Shown here: piece after piece, positions 592-53,397 of the stretch
Layout of the letters: every line of letters begins with the position of its first letter
How positions within the stretch are numbered: the first letter of the stretch is position 1
Assembly (NCBI GenBank): GCA_963969395.1
Contig: OZ017797.1
Span: 38,378,001-38,442,000 of the forward strand
Reading direction: 5' to 3'
Source: Pseudoscleropodium purum
Taxonomy: Eukaryota; Streptophyta; Bryopsida; Hypnales; Brachytheciaceae
DNA: 64,000 nucleotides
The notes under the pieces: generated by a model
Seen by the model: only the letters and a program-made list of their open reading frames with translations
What the model was told of the DNA's origin: nothing
The model's database searches: none
Made by a program: the position numbers and the translations under genes

Positions 592-894
592 CAGGGTTGA
601 CAAATCAGTACGTCCGCCCCAAAATAGCGTCCGTAACCCGGACGTCTGTCCTCATGGACGCCAGCGGACGCAGCGTCCCTCCCACCGTCGGAAGGCGGAT
701 GGGCAAGGCGGACGCCCAGATCATGCGGACTACATCAGTCCGCGTGTCGATCGAACGGCCGTAATCGGGCGAACAGGCGGACAGGGCGATCCCGGCGGAC
801 GCTGCGTCTGCCGGGACCACGAATGTCAGCGGATGTTGCGGACACAGCGTCCGTGTTCAGACGTCTTGGACGTCCGACCGTCCTGTCAACCCTG
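592..894. mobile_element. Complete 303-bp non-autonomous hAT-type element, CGGACG-rich
   Basis: The element begins CAGGGTTGAC (592-601) and ends with the exact reverse complement GTCAACCCTG (885-894). It is flanked by a perfect 8-bp direct repeat CTTGTCTA at 584-591 and 895-902. An 8-bp target duplication with CAGGG-type ends is characteristic of the hAT superfamily. The interior is strikingly GC-rich in an AT-rich context and consists largely of CGGACG/CGTCCG words on both strands. It also holds a 19-bp hairpin (725-743) of the form GCGGACT-N5-AGTCCGC. It has no transposase and no credible protein; long frames through it are by-products of the repeat. The same sequence forms the left end of the large element at 41598-53389. 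Confidence 0.88.
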
Positions 895-30632: not shown

Positions 30633-31842
30633 ATGGCGGTCCAAGTTCAACGGCCTTTGGTTTCGACTCTAAACCCCAATGCGCCCCTGTTTGTGCCAGC
30701 GTCTGCGGCGTCGATGACGTACAGCAGTCCTTGTGTTGAAATTGTGGTAGAGGATTTCTCTGTAGAGTGGTGGAGCCTGGTGCAGACGTGCCCGGAGTTT
30801 CGGGAGCAGTGGGTGCGCGACCGCTTGTCCGTGGTGGAGGAGCAGGAGAGCTTTGAAGCCGAGATTGAGGAAATCGCGGATCTCGAGGCGTTTCTGGAGG
30901 AACAAGAGGTGATGCAAGAATTAGAGGAGGCTTTGTATCTTGATGGTGTCGATGAGGAAGGTCAGTCCTTGGGGGTGCTGATTGTTACTGATTTTGTTCT
31001 AATTGCATTGGGGTCTCTGTTGTTTGTGTTTAGATTGAGCTTTGAGGTTTGCCGTTTGGTCTTGACGATGTGTGCGTATTGGTTGCTTATTGTGCTGTCG
31101 GTGATAGGATATTTCTTTCCTTGTCTTGTAGCTATCTTTAGTGGTTTTCAGCGTTAGAATAGGATTTTTTGTATTCATGTATTTTGGTTCTGTCTTTTTA
31201 ACAATTTTGTGAGGATTTCAATGTCCTAGAATACGTATTACTTGGATGCCATATGACGAAGTTTTGAACTGTTGAAGTATTACGAACCATGAGTATTGCA
31301 TCCACGATGTATCTCCTGGAAGCCTCTTTGACTGTGAAGGAACCTAGAATTATCTCATTCTTTTAAAAGACATTTGTCTGTATAATGTGTTAACAGACGT
31401 CTCTATGATGTGTCATACATTTGTCTGGACGATTTATCATTCGTGTGTCTGTATGACTTGTTGTACATTTGTTTTTATGACGTGTTGTGCGTTTGTCTGT
31501 ACGACTTATTTTACATTTGTCTGTATGATGTGTTATACATTTGTGTGTATGACACATTGTACATGGGCAACTTATTATGCATTACGAATGCACGAGTCTC
31601 CTTTCTGTGTTTGGGTTACTTACGCCAATGCCTTGCTTGTTTCTGAAGATCTTGCAGGCTTTCTAGAGGATGACTTGAGCTTGTCCAACATCAATCAGGT
31701 CAGAGATGTAAAGTTGAACCCGAAGCAGCAAGCGCCGTGGTGCAAGCCTGTGAAGAATCTCGAGAAGGTGCCTTGTAAGGCGCCGAATTCCACCAAGAAG
31801 GGAGTTCAATATCGCATTCAACAGCCCCGCGCTGTAATGTAG
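30633..31842 (+). CDS. ERD15/CID-like protein with PAM2 motif
   Basis: Two exons, 30633-30960 and 31658-31842 (donor GGTCAGT, acceptor TTGCAG), give 170 residues. Near the N-terminus is a canonical PAM2 motif, STLNPNAPLFVPAS, which in known proteins binds the MLLE domain of poly(A)-binding protein. It is followed by an acidic segment with EDFSVEWWSLVQTCPEFR, matching the conserved WW-containing block of ERD15/CID1-2 proteins. A Glu-rich coil follows, and the C-terminus carries the family QQPR signature three residues before the end (QQPRAVM). ERD15-type proteins are small, early stress-induced regulators of abscisic-acid and dehydration responses. Retention of the intron would replace the C-terminus with a hydrophobic tail. 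The start is the first ATG of the frame. Confidence 0.88.
31420..31563. repeat. 24-bp minisatellite in the ERD15-like intron
   Basis: Six consecutive 24-bp units, each like TTTGTCTGTATGATGTGTTA plus TACA, fill 31420-31563 inside the single intron. The unit length is a multiple of three and stop-free in one frame, which creates a spurious long frame, but the array is removed by splicing. Confidence 0.82.
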
Positions 31843-41324: not shown

Positions 41325-41597
41325 ATGGTGCATCATATAGAGAATACATCTTGTCTTGGACTCAACTTTGGAAAAAAGGTGAAGCTTTATAACAATGATT
41401 ATGGTGCATGCATCCATAAAGCAACGTGCAATATCCATTGGAATTATATGATTTCCCTCCTTTTTTTGGAGTGGTTGACATCAACGTTGAAAGAAGCAAA
41501 GTGTTCCAGATGTTCAATAGAAAACAATATCATGCACTATGCACAACCTCTACACTAGAATGCAAGTACATCACATTATTAAATGTACAATCATGGT
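41325..41597 (+). pseudogene. CACTA transposase-like remnant, left part
   Basis: The frame from 41325 continues in phase to 41597, where the inner element begins, with two in-frame stops (TAG after LH, TAA after SHY) that CAG and CAA would explain. It reads in phase into 53398 after removal of the insertion and one target duplication, giving NHG then MHLCIYSYEG across the junction. The domain itself is not diagnostic here; assignment relies on continuity with the right part. Confidence 0.5.
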
Positions 41598-42040
41598 CAG
41601 GGTTGATGAATCTCAACGTCCGCCCCAAAATAGCGTCCGTTTTTCGGACGTCCGGACGCACGGACGCTAGCGGACGTAGCGTCCCGACTGCCGTTGGAAA
41701 GCGGACGGGCGGGGCGGGGCGGACGGACGGGGCGGATGCCCAGATCGTGCGGACTAGATTAGTCCGCGCGTCGATCGGACGGTCGTAATCGGGCGGACGG
41801 GGCGGACGGGTGGACAGGCGGATGGGGGACAAGCGGACGCTGCATCCGCCGGACCGCGAATGTTAGCGGACGTTGCGGTCACAGCGTCCGCATCCGGACG
41901 TCGTGTCAACCCTAGGACGCACGAACGCTAGCAGACGCAGCGTCCCTCCCGCCGTCGGAAGGCAGACGGACGGGGCGGTCGGGCGGATAGACCAGACGGG
42001 GCGGACGGACAGGGCGGACGGGGCGGACTTCGCATTGCCA
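41598..42040. repeat. CGGACG block 1: left terminus, tandemly extended
   Basis: 41598-41913 corresponds end to end to the 303-bp element at 592-894, including its right-end sequence GTCAACCCT (41905-41913) and the 19-bp hairpin at 41749-41767. Immediately after comes a second partial copy (ACGCTAGCAGACGCAGCGTC onward) that starts at an internal position. The terminus is therefore partly duplicated. It is strongly GC-rich between AT-rich neighbours. Confidence 0.8.
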
Positions 42041-42470
42041 TTAGTCATTAGAAAATTTTATATTGTTATGTAATTTGAATGTTACACAATCAAAAATGAA
42101 TGCATCCACGTAAAATAAGATGTACATATAAAAATATTTTTATATGCAAATGAAAATATAGCATCTTTATATATAAATATATATGTATAAACAAAATACA
42201 TGAAAACATAGTTCCAATATCACTATTGAATCCTATACGATCTTTTTAAGATCTAAATCTTTCACATTCTTTTTCGTTTTTAAACAATGAAAGGACCATT
42301 GTTTTTAAAAAACAAAATTATCCTCAAATCCTACTTTCCACCGGATGGACCACTACCTTCTCCCAAAACAAAAGGAAAATCTGTTGTACCGAGGAGTTTA
42401 GCAGATGATTGACGAGTTGACCGTTGTTAACTTGGACGGACTATTCGCCCTCTAGATTGAACTTCGATGT

Positions 42471-45400
42471 CTACCTTATGAAATTGTTTCTTGGTTTCCA
42501 GAAAGAAGTCATCGTTCTCTTCATGCTTCTTTTTTGTTTTCTTTTCAGTAATAAATCGACTTCGTCTGCCTTCAAGGTTCTCAAGTTGCTCTCTACACGA
42601 TCTACCATCGCTTGAACAACTTTATCATCTCCTTTTCCTTGCCATATTGTAAGGCAGTCTCCATCCAATAGGAAAGCCTTCCAATGCCCTATAATATTGC
42701 CAATGCGCCTATCAAATGTTGCTGCCACATCTATAGATGAATGTCCTGTGCTTGTTTGTCCATTTGTATCGTAGACAACACGAACTTTTGCAGCCTCTTC
42801 TAACTTCGACAATAGAAAGGCTCTACCTACGAGGGTGTGGTCGTATGCCTTATACTGCTCATCAAACTCTTTTCCATGGTTCACCTCCACCCAACTGTCT
42901 TTTGGTCCTCTCTCCACTTTTTTATCTGGAAAACGAAAGAATTTTTCGTGTTGCAAGCTCCAATGTCCCCCCATGTTGCGACAAAACATTTCACGGGCCG
43001 CATCATCTACGATTCCTCGAGCCCGCAATTCCACCTCTCTATTGTGAGTCATCTACACATCCAAATCCAATGGTTGCTGAGATTCCTCGTACAAATCATG
43101 CCTTTGTTCATTTGCATTTCACTAGATTGGCTTCCCCCAATGTTGATAATTTTGAAATTTGTACGACACTTGATCAAGAGGAAGATTTCAACGATTGTAC
43201 TCGTGGCCTGGAGGCATAGCTTCCAAGATACCAAACATTTCGTAGAACCTACCACTCAATGGACTACGACACTCAGCACACACCGAACGAATGAGTGATG
43301 CTTTCACAATGCAATTGACATGGAAAGTGTGGCGACATTGGCCCATGGTTACCGCACCTTCCGGTCCGAAGAGGCCTTGGCAAAGACTACAACAACCATC
43401 CAAGATTGGAGAGGCTGAATCACAAACATGCATCACTTGCTTGTCTTTCACATTGATGTGTGCTGAAAGTGTTGTAAGGGACCCATCCTTCCTCTACTTT
43501 CAAGGCCCAATTAATGGATGGAGCTTGGTCCTTCTTTGTATGGTTTAATCGCTCAAACATGGCATCCATGTCTCCCCAACATGTGATCTCCATATATCCC
43601 TTAGAAGGATGTTGGTCAAACATAGTCTTGAACCAACTCAAAGAGCTTTGAATGGCATCGCAATTTTCATTCGACTCCATTGCCAATGTTTGAAGACTTG
43701 CCATTGCTTGAGATACTACAGAGGATCTATCTTGGAGTCTTTGTATCCATACTAACCATCGAGACTCCAAGCCGCTAGATGGCATAAACTTCTTCAAATC
43801 CAAGCACAATTGCAATCGATTCAACTTGGATTCAACCATTCCTTTTGCTTCAATTGTCTCCTCCCATTTATGCTTCAACTCTTCAAAGTCACAACTCTCC
43901 GTTTGCATCTCCGCATTCACATAAACGGATGAAAACTTTTCCATTGATGGTTGTTGTGTCGCTTTTAACATGCTCATGTCGTGACTTTCTTGTACATTCA
44001 CAATGGCAGGGTTGTCGCTTGCTTCGGCCTTATCAAAAGGAAGAGAGAACTTATCTTCACTCTCTTGAGTCTCTTGATTGTCTCCGAGTACAATCACTGG
44101 TGAGATTGCAACCTCACTTGGATTCTTCGAGGTCCCTTATAATTCTGCAATCCGTTTACGCATCTTCATCAACTCCTCCATTTGCCTCGATGATTGTTGA
44201 TTTAAATGTTCAACCTCACTCTCCGAAGTCTTTAATTTCAACTCCAACACTTTGCACCTTGCTTCCACTCCTCCAAGGTCAGCAATTTTCTTCTCATATT
44301 CCACCAATTGTAGTATGTGAACATCTGTTTCTTCGAAAAGTGGTCCAAAAGTCTTCGTGAGATTCTGAAATGCTATAGCACCTTTCAACATCTCCGGTGC
44401 CATGAAAGAAAACTCCTTGGCCAAATTCATAAAAGTTGGAGCAACTTTCGCTAAAAATTCAGTTGACATCGTCATCTTGAAAGCTGTATCAAGTATATGT
44501 GCAACATTCTTTGGATCTGTAAGTGGATTCATTGGAACAGCAGTAGCACCATCATCGAGTTAGACGATCCGCCTATTTTTTTATGAAGGTTAGCAAACTG
44601 AACCGAGAACTTCAAAAGATTTTCCAATTGTTTTGGATTGGACATGTCTTGCAAGGTTTGATGTAGAGGACTCGGCAATGACGTTGTAAACGGAAACTCC
44701 TCCGCCCGCCTTTTACGCTGGGAACTCCATAATGAGGATATATTATCAAACGTCACACCTTATCCACGAAGCGTATGTACTTTGTCTTCTAAACTTAACG
44801 CTGGGCTAGATTCAACGCCTTGATGCATAGGCGGAGATTTGTAGACCAAACTATCAAAACAATTGTTGTCTATCAGACTATCAATTGTAGCATTAGCCTT
44901 TGCCACTTTCTCCGCCAAGACTTCGTCTACTTTACTTTTTGAAGTTTCCTTGCGTTCCGTGCAAACATTGCCTTCGTTTATAAACTCCGTTTGCGTTTGT
45001 GCCGCAACATTTGGTGTAAAAGTCAAACGCATTGGAGCTGTGGAAAAGACTTCATCCTCCTGCGCCTCTACATCTTTCTCTACATCTTTCCCCACATTTT
45101 TCGAAGAGCTTTCATTGATTGCTTTTGTTGGAGATTGTACAAACCGTAATTCTTCAACATTTGAAGCTTTCTCCACACCATCTGTTTTCACCTCAATAGT
45201 ATTTTTTAATACTTTTTCTGTTTTTCCCTCTGAATTGTACAAGTCGGAAATGTCCTTTTGATTGGCTTCAAGTAGAAGTGGGCAAGCTGTTGTTGTCGGA
45301 AATGTGCTCCAATCGATCTTGCGCTCTAATATAAGTTTAGCGTAAACCATACACGCCACGCTGTAATTAATATAGCCTTTGCTTGTGCGCTTGTTTCCGA

Positions 45401-45734
45401 ATAGAACACGCCACACCTCTGCAGATCGATGGACAAAATGTTTGTTGTTGCAAGTCCATGGTTTACAACAAAAATCCCGTGTATGACTCTTGTGCGACTC
45501 CTGAGGCCACAACTTGTCAATGTGGTACATTTTAACATAGGTCCTGCACATTTTTGATGTCCAATACTCCGCATCTTCATCTTCCCACCCGCTCTCTACT
45601 TTAATTGTAGGGTCATTTAAAATGTCAAGCTGAAGGTCATGCGTAGCCCCCTTCACTTTGCTCTTTTTCTTGGCTTCGCTTCCCGGAGTCACCCCATCAA
45701 TATTTCGATCACCTTCACCGTTCATGATTATCAA
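42471..45734 (-). pseudogene. Cargo gene A: coiled-coil and RING-H2 protein, broken
   Basis: Reads on the minus strand from ATG 45734 (or 45725) to 42471, about 1,080 codons. The N-terminal part has GWEDEDAEYW...MCRTYVKMYHIDKLW followed by a Cys/His-rich stretch shared with cargo gene B. The middle is Glu/Lys/Ser-rich and predicted helical/coiled. A complete RING-H2 finger lies at 43391-43269 (C-x2-C-x14-C-x-H-x2-H-x2-C-x10-C-x2-C), suggesting ubiquitin-ligase activity in the intact ancestor. Breaks: in-frame stops at 44760, 44137, 43188, two near 43120 and one near 43054, plus probable frameshifts near 44560 and 43490. Most stops could come from CAA, CAG or CGA by C-to-T. Upstream on its own strand lie CGGACG block 2 and a TATA-like CTATAAGGG. 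The domain combination is not one I recognise. Confidence 0.7.
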
Positions 45735-45944
45735 TTGGATTCAATAACCAATTGAAGTGAATAAAAAAATCTCACGTGATAGTCAAAAGTGATGGCATCA
45801 ACCGTAACACAGTAACAAAATATAGAGGACCCCAACTCTCCACCCCGTAGGAGCAACTAGCGCATAAAGCAATAGTAGCACATCCAACTTGGCACTGAAG
45901 GAGAATTGAAGTGAGAAGAAATGAAAGTCACTCCACCCTTATAG

Positions 45945-46170
45945 CCGTCCGCCGCCGGACCTGCCCCGGACCGCGCGAAGAGGCCCCGAACCTCGCGTCC
46001 GCCACGCGGACTGACGACGTCCGCTTCGACAGCGGACGCGTTGTCCGCCCGTCGCCCCGTCCGATCGCCGCGTCCGCTCGGACTGTCTGTACTGTCCACC
46101 TTCCGACGCCGTCCGCGCTTTGGACACGCCGATTGCCCCACTTAAACACTGACCGCCGACGATGTCCGCC
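45945..46170 (-). repeat. CGGACG block 2, upstream of cargo gene A
   Basis: GC-rich block of CGTCCG/CGGACG words with a variant of the conserved hairpin at 46006-46024 (GCGGACTGACGACGTCCGC). On the minus strand it is followed by CTATAAGGGTGG (near 45945), a plausible TATA box about 200 bp before the start of cargo gene A. It may act as that gene's promoter or CpG island; this is inferred from position. Confidence 0.65.
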
Positions 46171-48305
46171 TAGCTATCCATTGGTGCATCATATGAGGCT
46201 ATTATTACTCAAAAAGAGCGGTAACATTTCAAAAATAAAACAACCTAATAATCACTGCTAAATGAGGATCAATGTAATTGATTTATCATTTTTAAAAAAA
46301 AAAAAATGTGAATCCTAAACCTTATACTCTAATTACCCTAAACCTTTTCTTTTCTCCCCTAAATTGTTTTACGAATGAGGGGAATGTGGTTAAGTTCAAT
46401 ATGTTTGGATTATTTACTTATATTATCCTTCTAAATAGGTTTTGAGCAGATCTGAAGATGGTGGGAATTTTTTTTAAATTCATTAGGAAATCAAATGTTT
46501 TGTAGAAATAATCAATTCCATTTTCATCGTAAGCAAATGAAATTTTTTTAAAAGGCCCCAATACATAATTAGAATAACAGTTTAATGGATTTCAACCTCA
46601 TGATATTTAATGAAAGGCTGTGATTTCTAATTAGAAGTGCATCACGATCTTCAAATGAACATCGAGTCTTTCATATTTTTTAATGAAATTTTGATTAGAT
46701 TTGAAAACAAAGAAAAAGAATCAATGTTTTAACTTTCAAATCATATATGGCTATATTTTTCCTTAAAAACATAGAAAAATTCGTTACTTGAGTTGGTTGA
46801 GTAGAATACATTATACACTTATACATATGCTATATTTATTTTGAAGGATAATTCCAATATTCTTATTTCAGATGTTTTTAAATATGAATTTTAAAAAAGA
46901 GGGTTCATTGTTTAAAGATCTAAAAAATTGACAAACATAATTTCTATTATAAATAGGAGTTGAATTCGGAATTCGAATTTTGAAATGATTCAAATGAACA
47001 AGATATTGATTAAACAATATTTCTTCGTTTGAGTTTTCAAAATGAATTCACGAAACAATTGCAAACTTTTGAATTTAGGTATATGGTATTGTATTTGGTT
47101 TGTACTTTGTAGAGTATAATATTTCAATTTTAATCCTAAATAAATGAAAAAACTCCACATGAATGAAATGTTTCTATGTATTGCACAAAGATTTCTACCA
47201 ATTACTATGATAATTAAATACATTGTTACATTTCATAAAATATTCTACATAGAAAGAAAAAATCATTTCAATTTTCAATCATGATAAACGATGTCTTCTA
47301 CTCTTTCTATTATATGTTCATTTTGTATAACATGTACATTGTACAATCTTTGAGAGCAGGGTAGTTCATTTTTGACTCTCATTGAAATAGAAAATATATT
47401 TGTGTTTGGATTTTGAAATCATTATGTATTCTACGGTCTTGCAAGAATGCATCTTGCTCCTTCCTTTGAATCCTTTTGATATTTTCTTTTTTTTCCTTTT
47501 TTTTCTGTCTTGTAGGGCTCTTGTTCTCTTGTTCTCTTCATTTGACCAGCCTATTTGGCTTGGCTTTTAGTTTTTTAGTTTTTTTTAATGCAATGGTTTA
47601 TGCATATATTATAAAAAATATATATTATTTATTTAAAATTAATATATTGATGAACAAACGCATAAAGGCATTGAATGCTTTCACATTTAAAGTTATAAAT
47701 CTATCATAAATCACTCTTGCAAATTTGAATGATTGAATCGAAAATTTGAAAATGTAATTACAAGAGCTTTCAGTTCAATCAATTGCATAAATCATAAATG
47801 TTGAAATGCAACTCGTATGAGTTTAGCATCTATGAAGATTAATTCATGCCATCCACATGCAATTTTCCAATTTAATAAAATGCAATTGAGTACTTCAATT
47901 TCTTTCTTTCCAATTCTCCAAGTAACAATCACTTCATATCTTTCTCTATTTGTTTATCTATTTTTTGGAAACAAATGGAGAAACCATCTTTGTCTATATT
48001 TGCACATGCACTCTTATTTGATTGATGAAGAATAGATTTATGAAATATATAATCATTAAAGGAGTATGGAAGACAAGATTGACAGATTGTGTTCAAATGT
48101 TGTTGATTTTGAAATGATTTAGTACTATATCATTTATAAGAATATTATAATAGTGTTATATTATAATATTCTTAAAAAAATTGCAACAAATATTAAAATA
48201 CATGCTAAGTTAGGTTTGTTAGCCTACCAATTGTTCATTAATAGACATAATTGAGTAGCCCCCTTAAATGAAACATTCAATATCTAATATCTTACAATTC
48301 AAATG
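46171..48305. other. AT-rich spacer between cargo genes A and B
   Basis: No gene or clear repeat was recognised. Frames at 46990-47223 and 47476-47709 are low-complexity products of T-rich DNA. Confidence 0.4.
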
Positions 48306-48460
48306 GTGGATTTGTCTAAAAATTTTTCCACATCTTTTCCAACTAATTTACTATAAGATCCTACGATCACATATGCCAAAAGTATTTTTCTTTTAAGACT
48401 TGGTATTTGCACTACTAATGGCAGTTTTGAAGTGCTTTTAGTGAAAAGAACTTTAGGGGT
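48306..48460 (+). repeat. Fragment of dispersed repeat R1 inside the composite element
   Basis: Matches the terminal part of R1 (compare 4180-4340): CTTTTCCAACTAATTTACTATAAGATCCTA-like text and AACTTTAGGGGTTAA. Its presence means host repeat DNA was acquired by, or inserted into, the composite element. Confidence 0.5.
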
Positions 48461-48508
48461 TAAACATCTATATCGTGAGATTTTGAAAAAAGAACAATTT
48501 GCTTCATT

Positions 48509-48529
48509 GGGTTTAGGGTTTAGGGTTTA
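48509..48529 (+). repeat. Three telomere-type GGGTTTA units
   Basis: GGGTTTAGGGTTTAGGGTTTA lies immediately before CGGACG block 3. Plant telomeres are TTTAGGG, but three units also occur as the promoter 'telo box' of plant genes. Its position at the AT/GC boundary is notable. Confidence 0.7.
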
Positions 48530-48532
48530 AGG

Positions 48533-48845
48533 TGAGCCGTCCGCCCTGTCCGCTCGATCCGGCGTCCGCCTTGTCCGCCCCGTCCACCCTGTTCGCCTCG
48601 TCCGCTGCGATATCCCTCCGCCTGTTCTCCGTCCGTCATGTCCGCCCAATCCGGAGTCTGCCTTGTCCGCCCCGTCCTCTATCCGCCCGGTTCACCCGAT
48701 CCGACATTCGCCCCGTCCGCCCCAATACCCGTCCGCCCGGTTACGGCCGTCTGATTGACATGCGGACTGATATAGTCCGCATGATTTGGACATCCGCCTC
48801 GAGGCGTCCGCATATATATATGGGGAGGTGGACGGCTCATTCCGA
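48533..48845. repeat. CGGACG block 3, inverted, upstream of cargo gene B
   Basis: A reverse-orientation relative of the 592-894 element: the segment around the hairpin (48762-48780, GCGGACTGATATAGTCCGC) and the adjoining TTACGGCCGT match the reverse complement of the small element. Neither CAGGGTTGAC end is present. It ends in CATATATATATGGGGA (about 48810), a TATA-like sequence some 230 bp before the ATG of cargo gene B. Confidence 0.7.
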
Positions 48846-49044
48846 ACAATCGTTCTCTTTTGAAGTGGGCGGACCAGTGCTTTGGAAGCTCTGCGCGCCC
48901 CTTCTGCTTTGAGTGAACGATTGTTGTGAGATTGTTACAAATTTTCACAAAATTCACGCTTGTAAAATTTTAATTAATTAATTAAATCAAAATTTTGGTT
49001 CTTAAGCTTTCTAATTGTTTCATTCTCTTTGCTTCGGCTTCATC

Positions 49045-50307
49045 ATGCCGAAAGATAGAACACCCAAAAAAAGTTGTCGAAAGGGAAGACCCCAATTGTT
49101 CGATTGGAATGCTTGGGCCAATCTATTGTGTGTAGGTGAACCGGGATGGGAGGAGGAACCAACAAAAGTGTGGGATTGCTCAATGTGCAAGAAGTATATG
49201 AAAATGACTCACATTCAAAAACTTTGGTGACGTAAACGTGTAGAGCACCAAGCGCCACGTTGCGAAGGACAAATGTTTACATGCCAAAGTGAGCACTTCA
49301 AACAACGATACACACAAGTGCATCGAGTTCTTGGCATTAAAAGCGCCAAACCAAATATAATGAATTATAATGTTATGGCAATGGTTTGGGCAGAGATTGT
49401 ACTCCACAAGGATGTGGACTGGCGTACCGCTACAAGTCGCAATGTGGAGAACTATACGCGCACGGATGCCGTTATAGATACACAGTGGAGGGGCGCAAGC
49501 GATTGCATGCCAGAGTGGTCCAATCGAGGTTATCTACAACAATCTTCAGTTGTTCTACAAGATGCTCAAGATGCGTGGACAAATGACGATAATGACGATG
49601 ATATGCAAGCGCTTGTCACATTTGGAGTTAGGTACGAGCGGGTAGAAGAACGAGAACGAATTGAATTCGAACAACAAATGCAAGAGGCAACACGTAGAAG
49701 CCTTCAAGATCGTGGACGGCAAGATAGGCATGGTGGGTCCTACGGACGTGAACATAGAACGCGAGAATCTAAACAAGGAAGAGGTGGTTCATACTCTGGT
49801 TACGATCCTCAAAATAGATATGAAGGTGGAAGAGGGAACTATGGATCCACGCATTATGGTGGTTCAAGTGCAGTTGGTTCTCATTATGGCACTCCCTCTG
49901 AAATTAGCTCTCAAGGTGGAGCAGGTAGCTATAGCAACACACATTATAGTAGGTCTAGTGGATCTGGTTTATATTATACTACGCCCACTTAAGTAGGCTT
50001 CGAAGGTAGTAGAGGAAGTCATGTAACCTCGCAGTATAGTTGTTCTCTTCACGGAAATGTCCAATACTATCCGGGATCAACTAGAAATGATTCATACGGG
50101 TATCATGGGGCCTCTTATTACGGGGCTTCAAATGAAAGAGGATCAGAGCCTACTACTCCAGTTCCTCCTCCTACTTTTGGAGGTTCAAATTATGGACAAG
50201 GAGGTGCACCGAGTGGATATCACGGAAACTACAGAGGTGGTTCGTTCATTGGAGTACAAAGAAGAGGCAGCGGTCAACAATTTGAGTCCGATTCAGATTC
50301 TGAATAA
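49045..50307 (+). pseudogene. Cargo gene B: W/C/H-domain protein with Gly/Tyr/Ser-rich tail, broken
   Basis: One frame of 420 codons from ATG 49045 to TAA 50307, interrupted by TGA at 49228 and TAA at 49990; CGA and CAA would explain both. The N-terminal part (GWEEEP...MCKKYMKMTHIQKLW and a C-x6-C-x3-H stretch, RCEGQMFTCQSEH) parallels cargo gene A, followed by NYNVMAMVWAEIVLHKDVDW, which also has an A counterpart. An acidic segment and a Glu/Arg-rich helix follow. The last ~200 codons are low-complexity Gly/Tyr/Ser/His (HYGGSS-type), ending in an acidic SDSDSE. Such tails occur in RNA-binding or condensate-forming proteins, but no RNA-binding fold is visible. Function unknown. CGGACG block 3 with a TATA-like sequence lies just upstream. 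Confidence 0.65.
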
Positions 50308-50904
50308 AAAAACATGCAAGTATATAATGAGCATGTATTTGCTCAATTTTCTCATTTTTACTCTCACGACAAGTATAGAGCACTAGATTGGTAGAAGTAG
50401 TACAAAATTTTAAATGAATAGAACAATTTTGAACAACAATTTTATTCACTTTTTCAAAAAATATTGTGTAATAGTGTACACCAAGTATGTATGTAGGCAA
50501 GCATATTCTTGAAGATATCATTGTATTATTTTATAATAGGGTTGATGTATAAGGCTATAAGCGACTTTGATAAATAAAAAAATATGAAGAAGAAATGTAA
50601 CTTTGTAAGAGCCATATTATGTCTATTTTTGAATTTAGCATTCGAGGTTAAATATGGACTAGCATGGTGTGTATTTTGAAATTATTGTTGTGTGTTTATT
50701 ACATTTAGAAACTCGTAAATGGTATAAATGTATTTCTAATTAATTTATGAAAGATTGAATTATTTGAATATTTGAAATTTTTTTATTTTTCATTCAACGA
50801 TTGTTAAAAACTAAAATGATTTCTTATTGATATGAAGAAATGACCAAATTAGACAAGTAGTGGTTCTTCTTTAGATTCTATTTTCAAATATGGAAAATAA
50901 ATCA

Positions 50905-51135
50905 GATCGAGCGGACGGGGCTCGAGGATTTCGGGGAGGCGGACGGCCGATGCATCCGCCACCCGCGGCCCGTCTGATCGGGCAAACAGTGTAAGGCCGT
51001 TCGCCGCTGCCCGTCAGATCAGGCGGACGCCAAATTTGTCCACCCGTGGCTGTCCGATCGGGCGGACGGGGCTTGAGAGTTTCGGGGAGGCGGACGGCCG
51101 ATGCGTCCGCCACCCCCGGCCCGTCCGATGGGGCA
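50905..51135. repeat. CGGACG block 4: two ~79-bp tandem units, upstream of cargo gene C
   Basis: Units at about 50905-50983 and 51056-51132 share GGACGGGGCTYGAG, TTTCGGGGAGGCGGACGGCC and a GCGTCCGCCACCC-type end. They are separated by a related but less regular GC-rich stretch. The block lacks the 19-bp hairpin. It ends about 210 bp before the start of cargo gene C. Confidence 0.75.
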
Positions 51136-51344
51136 GACAGGCCAACCGCATTGTCACTTTTGCTTTGTCCCTTGTGAATGCAAGGTGGAGCGGAGAGCTT
51201 GGTGGTTCATCCTCCATTGGCTCATTTTTTAGGCAAGGCAAAAGTGGTTTATTGGGGCCCCCTTGTTGCCAATTTTTTGGACACTTGCGCGTGAATTCAA
51301 TTTTAAATTAAAAAATTTGATCGATATCAGTTTCATTTGTCACG

Positions 51345-52838
51345 ATGCCGAACGGGCAGAAGAAGGTTGCGAAGCTAAAACATGGAGAGGGACCATCAAA
51401 CTTGGAAGTAGCTCGCCAAAGTCCTTCAAAAGAATGCAAGAAATTCATGATCGAGCGCATCGTTCAATTTTATGAATCGGAAACAACATTGTCTTTAGAC
51501 AATAAGTACATCAAATATCAAGAGGAGTGCGTGTCTAAATTCAAGGTAGACATGACACAGATGTTGTTGGATGCATTGAATGTGGCGAAGTGGCATGATG
51601 AAATGCATAAAGCGCACTTCACCAAATGTTTGGAGAACAAGGTTCATGACGCTTTGTGGAATTCCAAAGTCATTTTGGTTAAATATGGCAAGGAATATCG
51701 ACCCAATGACGCCTAGTTTGAAAAAGTGATTCTGAAGGCGGACTTATATAGGGGGCGATGTGCTCTATTCGCCGAAAAGCACAATCGAGTTGGTTCAATT
51801 GCTTGGTGGAAAAGCAATGATGGAGTTGCTGAAGCGGAAAGGACCAAACGGCACCTCATAGCACTTCCAAATACAGCACGCTTGATTGCTGTTGATGATA
51901 GAACAATGAGAGGTGGATATGCAATGATTCGAAAGGTCTATATTGAAGGATGTCCAGAAATACTTCCTTATTGGGAGTTTGCGGCAAAGAAATCCATTCA
52001 CCACCAAACTCCACCTGATCCTGCAAAGTTAGAACATCAAAACAAATCAGTGGCTGTTCAAATTCCACACGCGGGTGTGATACGGTTTACTGCGGTGCAC
52101 GGAATGACGTGTGAAGGTTTTGCGTATTGGTGGAATGGTGGAACTCTTCGACAAATGTTGAATATGGATAAGAACTATCCAGACAACATTCAAATCCGTT
52201 TGATGTATACAAATCCAACCGAAGAGGAGGTTGTAAAAGCTCACCGTTTAGGGCGATATCGGAAGAAGCGCACGGAGTTGACATGGGCGTTTATGCATAT
52301 AATGTATGCAGTGCATCTTGCTGGACATTTGTACAATGATCTTTCTCCGGACAACATCTTGTTGCATTTTCCAGAGGATGAGTCACGTGTGTACATTGGA
52401 GTTTGCGATTGAGGCATGACCACCTTAGCTTCTCAACCAATGAAGTCTTTGTACACATTCACATCAGCAGATGAGATGAAACAGACTTTGCAGAGGAGAT
52501 GGTGGGTGGATCCACGTATTGCTTATTTGCATAAAGCAGGTGCAGATGTGGAAGTCATTCCGATGTATTCACGTAAGTTGGAAGAGTATGCCATTCGAAA
52601 AATTGCTCAACGGGTGAATGGAAACAACATGTCAGAGGCGTATTTCAACTTGCTACTTAAAACACCTAGTGCGACACAATTTGCCTTTCATGACTTTGCA
52701 AAAGTGTTTTATGCTTACTTGAAGCGCATTTCTTTGAAGAGTAACGATGAAAATACTAGTTTGGCCCATGTGATTATGCGATTTTCTAATACATATCGTT
52801 GGCCGATGCCAAATGAACATTTCCGCCATTTATATTAG
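51345..52838 (+). pseudogene. Cargo gene C: protein-kinase-like protein, broken by two stops
   Basis: A single frame of 497 codons from ATG 51345 to TAG 52838, with stops TAG at 51714 and TGA at 52410. Kinase-like landmarks lie in the expected order: a Lys in AMIRKVYIEG (codon 197), a hinge-like YWWNGGTLRQML, a catalytic-loop-like YNDLSPDNILL (Asp 332, Asn 337) and VCD-stop-G at codon 355, where the family has DFG. The stop TGA sits where TGG would give DWG, and TAG 51714 would be CAG, so both are single transitions. HRD is replaced by YND. The first ~125 codons are Lys-rich with no known domain, and about 140 codons follow the kinase-like core. The sequence is remote from ordinary plant receptor kinases, so the family is uncertain. 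Confidence 0.65.
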
Positions 52839-53264
52839 ATTGGTAGTGTAGAAGTAGTAGTTGAATAGGTTATATAGGCATTAAAAATTAGTTTAGAAAT
52901 ATAGAGTTGGAATGAAAAAAATTATATGTGCAATTAGCCAAATGTACACAATGTATGGTATTCTATATTAAATTCAATACATTTTGTCCATATTGATTAT
53001 GTTTGTATTTGTGTTGATCTCGATTTTTTAAATAGTATATATATATATTTGAAGTCATAAATTTTTTTAGTTTGCCTTCTGAAAATGAATTGGAATTTTT
53101 TCATAGTTTCAAGACTATCATGGACTTTTAGTCAAACTTTATAATCTTTCAACTTATAAGAGACATTGTTTTAATAACAAATCGCGAACCATTGCACTTC
53201 ATTTAACTTTTAATTGTTTAAAGATTAAGGGAGTGACCGCAGGGCAGTTTGGGTAGGGCGGTCG

Positions 53265-53389
53265 GGGGAAACAAGATCGTCAAAGCGGATGGGGCAGACG
53301 GGCGGGGCGGACGGGGTGACAGACGGACGGGGCAGTCCTGGCGGACGCTGCGGACACAGCGTCCGTGTCCGGACATCGTGTCAACCCTG
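53265..53389. repeat. CGGACG block 5: right terminus of the composite element
   Basis: The last ~70 bp (GGCGGACGCTGCGGACACAG onward to GTCAACCCTG) align with the right end of the small element at 592-894. The left end of that small element is missing here, in keeping with this being one terminus of a larger element. The left flank of the block, from about 53230, is less similar. Confidence 0.75.
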
Positions 53390-53397
53390 ATCACGGT

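Follow-up and report, generated by a model that had tools for sequence, protein, structure and literature searches.

The window, that is, the whole 64,000-nucleotide stretch of Pseudoscleropodium purum contig OZ017797.1 analysed here, contains an 11.8-kb unit at positions 41598-53389, which begins with CAGGGTTGAT at 41598 and ends with GTCAACCCTG at 53389. CAGGG-type ends are typical of hAT transposons. The unit lies between the octamers ATCATGGT (41590-41597) and ATCACGGT (53390-53397), a target-site duplication (TSD) matching at 7 of 8 positions. Among the 159 CAGGG..CCCTG pairs of the window scored at a spacing of 100-20,000 bp, two have flanks that match at 7 positions or more: this unit and a small element that lies apart from it and belongs to the same family, 303 bp long (592-894, forward strand), with CTTGTCTA on each side (8/8). 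Random pairs of 8-mers from the window match at 7 or more positions with a frequency of 0.0007. The first-pass annotation, made from the letters of the window, had proposed hAT-type ends with near-perfect 8-bp flanks as well as homology of both termini to the 303-bp element; the flanks of the two elements bear out the former, and alignment confirmed the latter.

Both arms of the unit are rich in GC and in CGGACG-type repeats, as had been noticed, and the left arm moreover contains an extra small element. It is doubled: a whole copy of the 303-bp type (41598-41914, forward strand), which starts with CAGGGTTGAT and has GTCAACCCTA as its inner end, is followed by a second, partial arm of CGGACG-type repeats (41915-42036, forward strand). 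In the alignment with another copy of the unit, at G000:C1:1583944-1595592, position 318 onward of the window unit corresponds to position 49 onward; this offset implies that about 270 bp of the left arm are extra in the window copy, and most of the small-element copy at 41598-41914 is extra relative to that other copy. The right arm, with the terminal GTCAACCCTG, occupies 53250-53389 (forward strand). Three internal islands of a like kind lie upstream of the three genes A, B and C: a GC-rich and CpG-rich island upstream of A (45878-46178, reverse strand), a GC-rich island upstream of B (48537-48830, forward strand), 72 bp of which match the small element at 85%, and, upstream of C, a GC-rich island that includes an 88-bp direct repeat (50902-51150, forward strand). 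In BLASTN, the arms and the small element were linked with the B island and not with the A and C islands. Between the A and B islands extends an AT-rich spacer (46180-48530). TTTAGGG-type repeats occupy the junction of the spacer with the B island (48513-48531); they are absent at the matching place in a transposase-bearing relative of the unit, L015. Outside the unit, a frame of 174 aa at 30633-31157 of the window matches the PAM2 motif (E 1.3e-4) and is probably a host gene.

Genes A, B and C are long single frames that show no introns, and all three are broken in the window copy. Gene A (42334-45725, reverse strand) comprises an N-terminal domain shared with B, a long middle part predicted with low confidence to be helical, a RING-H2 domain and a conserved C-terminal region; it is disabled by 6 stops at aligned positions and by frame shifts. 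Gene B (49045-50307, forward strand, 2 in-frame stops) joins the shared N-terminal domain to a tail rich in Gly, Tyr and Ser, and gene C (51345-52838, forward strand, 2 in-frame stops) encodes a protein-kinase-like protein of about 497 aa. The RING-H2, Gly/Tyr-rich and kinase-like proteins announced by the first-pass annotation correspond to A, B and C. Its description of three unrelated-looking cargo genes holds for their number and fails for their relations: A and B have the N-terminal domain in common (BLASTP E 6e-20), so the three are not all unrelated, and C is also carried by the transposase-bearing form described below.

Protein searches returned 56 relatives of C, 38 of B and 13 of A. 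Two C relatives are named as coming from the moss Ceratodon purpureus, one of them a cluster of 126 member sequences, and another, labelled as a bacterial metagenome assembly, is probably contamination. In an alignment of 31 sequences (30 of the 56 relatives plus the window C), Pkinase was matched by 29 members at E 0.01 (best 3.1e-7; 0.019 for the window C alone), and G190, K215, D332, N337 and D355 are invariant, so that the C family has both the domain and the catalytic residues of a protein kinase. All 13 relatives of A match zf-RING_2, with RING cysteines and histidines that are invariant across 13 sequences and identify a RING-H2 domain; the window A itself matches zf-RING_11 (E 4.1e-6) at 26.8 bits, against a cut-off of 27. 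Profile searches of PDB sequences agree with these assignments, with kinases for C (best E 0.0022), RING proteins for A (best 3e-7) and no match at 0.1 for B. Among the 38 B relatives, a single one hits a Mutator-like transposase model (E 0.081). The domain shared by A and B, aligned from 32 of the 38 B relatives and 12 of the 13 A relatives, was predicted with confidence over approximately residues 20-130; against solved structures, Foldseek gave one match at E 8 and VIA-align none, although a match could have escaped both tools because the model spans 420 residues. A structure model of the A family (pTM 0.23) was set aside. Viral contigs searched with C and B yielded no relative, and the lone weak hit to C in genome contigs (Erythrobacter; some 70 residues at 31% identity, E 1e-4) was discarded as chance. 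One A-family protein, P0095, covers 76% of the query at 93% identity and lies on a contig of 49,417 bases.

As the first-pass annotation had stated, no recognisable transposase is present in the unit. Six-frame translation of 46180-48540 gave no Pfam match at E 0.5, and A, B and C matched RING-type families, a weak kinase and scattered sub-threshold models, none of them a transposase family. The window copy has the short CAGGG-starting terminal inverted repeats and the 8-bp TSD (7/8 here) of the hAT superfamily, and encodes no recognisable transposase with the hAT dimerisation domain; it is a hAT element by its ends and its kinship, and it is non-autonomous.

Further copies were sought in the genome that holds the window (313,191,705 bases in 52 contigs). 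The end motif CAGGGTTGAY occurs 3,783 times in forward and 3,805 times in reverse orientation, against 351 and 305 for the same pattern read backwards. Twenty stretches were picked by end spacing from the first 100 places listed. Two adjoining ones gave the copy at G000:C1:1583944-1595592, found from its ends alone, which measures 11,649 bp, is flanked by GTTTAGTA/GTTTAGTA (8/8), has the three genes in mirror order (C, B, A) and is 89-93% identical to the window unit over most of its length. Another, L015, is 9,568 bp long, with GTTGAAGA on both sides (8/8), and carries C and the same spacer; at the place of A it encodes a protein with DUF659 (E 1.3e-21), a domain that we take to accompany hAT transposases, and Dimer_Tnp_hAT (E 4.5e-9). 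The search thus delivered what the first-pass annotation had called for, namely other copies with both ends and matching flanks. Twelve short units with the family ends (190-384 bp) were also found, with flanks matching 8/8 in 11 and 7/8 in one. Several further stretches held one end only, and three end pairs with mismatched flanks were left uncounted (L010, 3,663 bp; L012, 8,781 bp; L016, 1,028 bp). Between the ends of L012 (G000:C1:1498700-1507750), 8,781 bp apart and with unmatched flanks, lies a frame with an AP2 domain (E 5e-12).

Copies were also read from the top of score-ordered lists of gene matches, five for A and six for C; because these lists are ordered by score, the sample is non-random and gives no share of the two forms. 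The five copies picked by A have the same layout as the window unit, with C in all five (truncated in one where the fetched stretch stops) and B in four, and no transposase was matched in the parts fetched (0/5). Their flanks match 8/8 in two and 1/8 in two, and in one the right end was not found; with the copy found from its ends, this makes 8/8 in three, 1/8 in two and no right end in one of the six A-form copies besides the window's, and unmatched flanks (1/8 each) in two of the six A-form copies, window included, in which both ends were located. A, B and C thus recur together in fixed order and spacing, with full duplications in three of six other copies, as expected of the single large mobile unit that the first-pass annotation had proposed; the arrangement it had named as contrary, in which each gene would consistently sit in an element of its own, was not encountered.

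The six copies picked by C tell of a second, transposase-bearing form (the T form). A transposase is present in all six (in L040 it is cut by the end of the stretch), and neither A nor B was found in any within 9 kb upstream of C. With L015, seven T-form copies were read; all of them share the spacer and have the transposase where A would be, and none yielded A or B. A TSD of 8/8 borders the three C-picked copies with both ends located and hence four of the seven T-form copies; L040 has its left end beyond the fetched stretch and thus no scored duplication, and L044 and L045, without the outermost left end and with altered right ends, show no duplication. Besides L015, three T-form copies measure, by arithmetic, 9.6-9.7 kb, and the A form about 11.6-11.9 kb, or 9.9 kb in one copy without B. 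In the T form, the transposase gene is divergent from the kinase gene C; in the A form, the RING-H2 gene A occupies the same place and orientation, and B usually lies between the spacer and C. The two layouts can be followed in the alignment of the 11,649-bp copy with L015: they diverge at position 151 of each, rejoin near the A island (4300 and 4276, respectively) and separate once more where the spacer stops and the B block of the A form begins. The spacer of the window unit, which gave no Pfam match in six frames, is mostly common to the T form. Three transposase frames were translated whole, and contain 2, 6 and 3 stops.

Genome-wide, at least 41 full or near-full matches of A, 100 of B, 86 of C and 63 of the transposase (last 702 aa) were scored out of 1,658, 1,384, 1,541 and 1,107 first-look candidates, respectively; the genes of L015 itself and the B of the window are counted in these lists, and the candidates left unscored do not rank as confirmed copies. 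Counted from the rows, matches without stops amount to 1 of 41 for A, 17 of 100 for B, 36 of 86 for C and 19 of 63 for the transposase. Within 15 kb, the scored matches form 22 transposase-C pairs, 21 of them divergent (0.52 by chance), and six A-C pairs, all divergent (0.34 by chance). No transposase-A pair occurs (0.25 by chance); with scoring limited to a fraction of the candidates, this absence is suggestive, and stronger evidence that A and the transposase are separate comes from the copies read. Within 12 kb, there are 14 A-B pairs, all divergent and with near-constant spacing, eight B-C pairs, all on the same strand and 2.3-2.7 kb apart, and a single transposase-B pair, on the same strand (0.48 by chance). 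The A, B, C and transposase lists also contain pairs of copies of equal score and with the same stops in inverted orientation 7-27 kb apart (for example C46:298689/C46:325330, C41:19755455/C41:19772716 and C49:5135114/C49:5141824), which are due either to recent inverted duplication or to an artefact of the assembly.

A tree built from 14 spacers, seven from each form, unites the A-form copies in one group with a support of 0.995; on average, spacers of the A form are 0.965 identical to each other, those of the T form 0.980, and spacers of different forms 0.952. The tree would be compatible with a single origin of the A form, and, being unrooted, gives no direction. Median dN/dS between copies, in which selection before insertion is mixed with decay after it, is 0.52 for C (21 pairs; L034, with 84 codons, was dropped), 0.44 for A (one pair) and 0.76 for B (15 pairs), with B values near or above 1 in some pairs and up to 1.21.

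Taken together, the window unit very likely belongs, as one copy among others, to a large hAT-type family with two sister forms, of which the A form would be moved in trans by the T form. Ends, spacer and gene order are shared, the copies recur and bear 8-bp TSDs, and no transposase was matched in the A-form copies read. A and B belong to the form without transposase; C is not cargo, because both forms carry it. Since the A form lacks a transposase and a transposase-bearing sister with like ends exists, movement in trans, which the first-pass annotation had suggested, is the natural reading. The T-form transposase would recognise the common ends and the CGGACG-rich arms, and would thereby mobilise the A form as well as the short elements with the same ends. 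With less certainty, A, B and C may have been kept for a benefit to the copies in which they reside; their proteins might, for example, act on the CpG-rich islands that make up the arms and also precede each gene. These roles can be carried one step further, to a pair of interdependent transposons in which the T form is accompanied by a helper form that encodes, in place of the transposase, two related proteins, one of the RING-H2 type and the other possibly DNA-binding. Both forms would keep the kinase, and the helper proteins would act sequence-specifically on the CGGACG islands of ends and promoters, perhaps to counter silencing; we regard this extension as doubtful.

The alternative that retains some plausibility, though we hold it to be unlikely, is that the A form is an ordinary defective derivative, in which A, B and C are passengers and which spreads only through ends recognised by the transposase. 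The short elements show that such ends alone can suffice, stops interrupt 40 of the 41 scored A copies, and B has a dN/dS near 1 in several pairs; against this, three long frames are retained in a recurrent form, dN/dS has a median of 0.52 for C and is 0.44 for the single A pair, the kinase positions of C (31 sequences) and the RING cysteines and histidines of A (13) are invariant, and all three genes have relatives in other genomes. Capture of host genes by a hAT element of the Pack-TYPE kind has a precedent in the Pack-hAT elements reported from maize and rice (PMC8903248), and is here very unlikely given genes without introns at fixed positions in many copies, a gene C common to the transposase form and the Ceratodon purpureus cluster of 126 C sequences. 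It is also highly improbable that A or B is an unrecognised transposase and the A form autonomous. In favour of this, their shared domain found no match among solved structures with the tools used, A could not be modelled, and one B relative matches a Mutator-like transposase model; against it, this match is single and far above significance, the recognisable domain of A is RING-H2 in 13 of 13 relatives, and the same family has a hAT transposase. Finally, a pile-up of several separate insertions, which the inner small-element end at 41914 and the three internal GC-rich islands might have evoked and which the first-pass annotation had kept as its alternative, is contradicted by the same layout in the copy found from its ends and in the five picked by A, three of these six having 8/8 TSDs at their outer ends, and is next to impossible.

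The reading that we favour, two sister forms with movement in trans, sets this family apart within its superfamily. In the parts of the literature that our searches covered, we met no hAT family in which a transposase form and a multi-gene form lacking the transposase both carry a kinase gene. hAT elements duplicate 8 nt of target (PMC8903248, PMC12506042), and the family shares with them this TSD length, the CAGGG-type ends and, in the sister form, a DUF659 and Dimer_Tnp_hAT transposase; it differs by its size of 9.6-11.9 kb, its several genes, the kinase present in both forms and the lack of a recognisable transposase in the form of the window. The hAT-type MITEs have their counterpart in the 303-bp element and the 12 short units, with the same ends and arms, whereas the window unit, with its three genes, has about 40 times their length. 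Pack-hAT elements are non-autonomous, with hAT ends and coding DNA inside (PMC8903248). The window unit resembles them in all three respects, and differs, on the present evidence, in that what it carries is no collection of captured host fragments but a recurrent gene set, one gene of which also occurs in the sister form. ToxTA (formerly ToxhAT) is likewise large (~14 kb), non-autonomous and gene-carrying, but is fungal, with a TA duplication and 74-bp inverted repeats, and the 2025 paper no longer places it in hAT (PMC12506042); we therefore dropped it as a hAT precedent. With at least 41 copies of A, 100 of B and 86 of C, the moss family is a natural case in which to ask why a non-autonomous element keeps genes. 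A lead, by analogy only, may come from the VANDAL elements, which are Mutator-like. Their VANC anti-silencing proteins bind repeats within the noncoding parts of their own elements and remove silencing marks (PMC10398659), and proteins of the A form might similarly bind the noncoding repeats of the element that encodes them.
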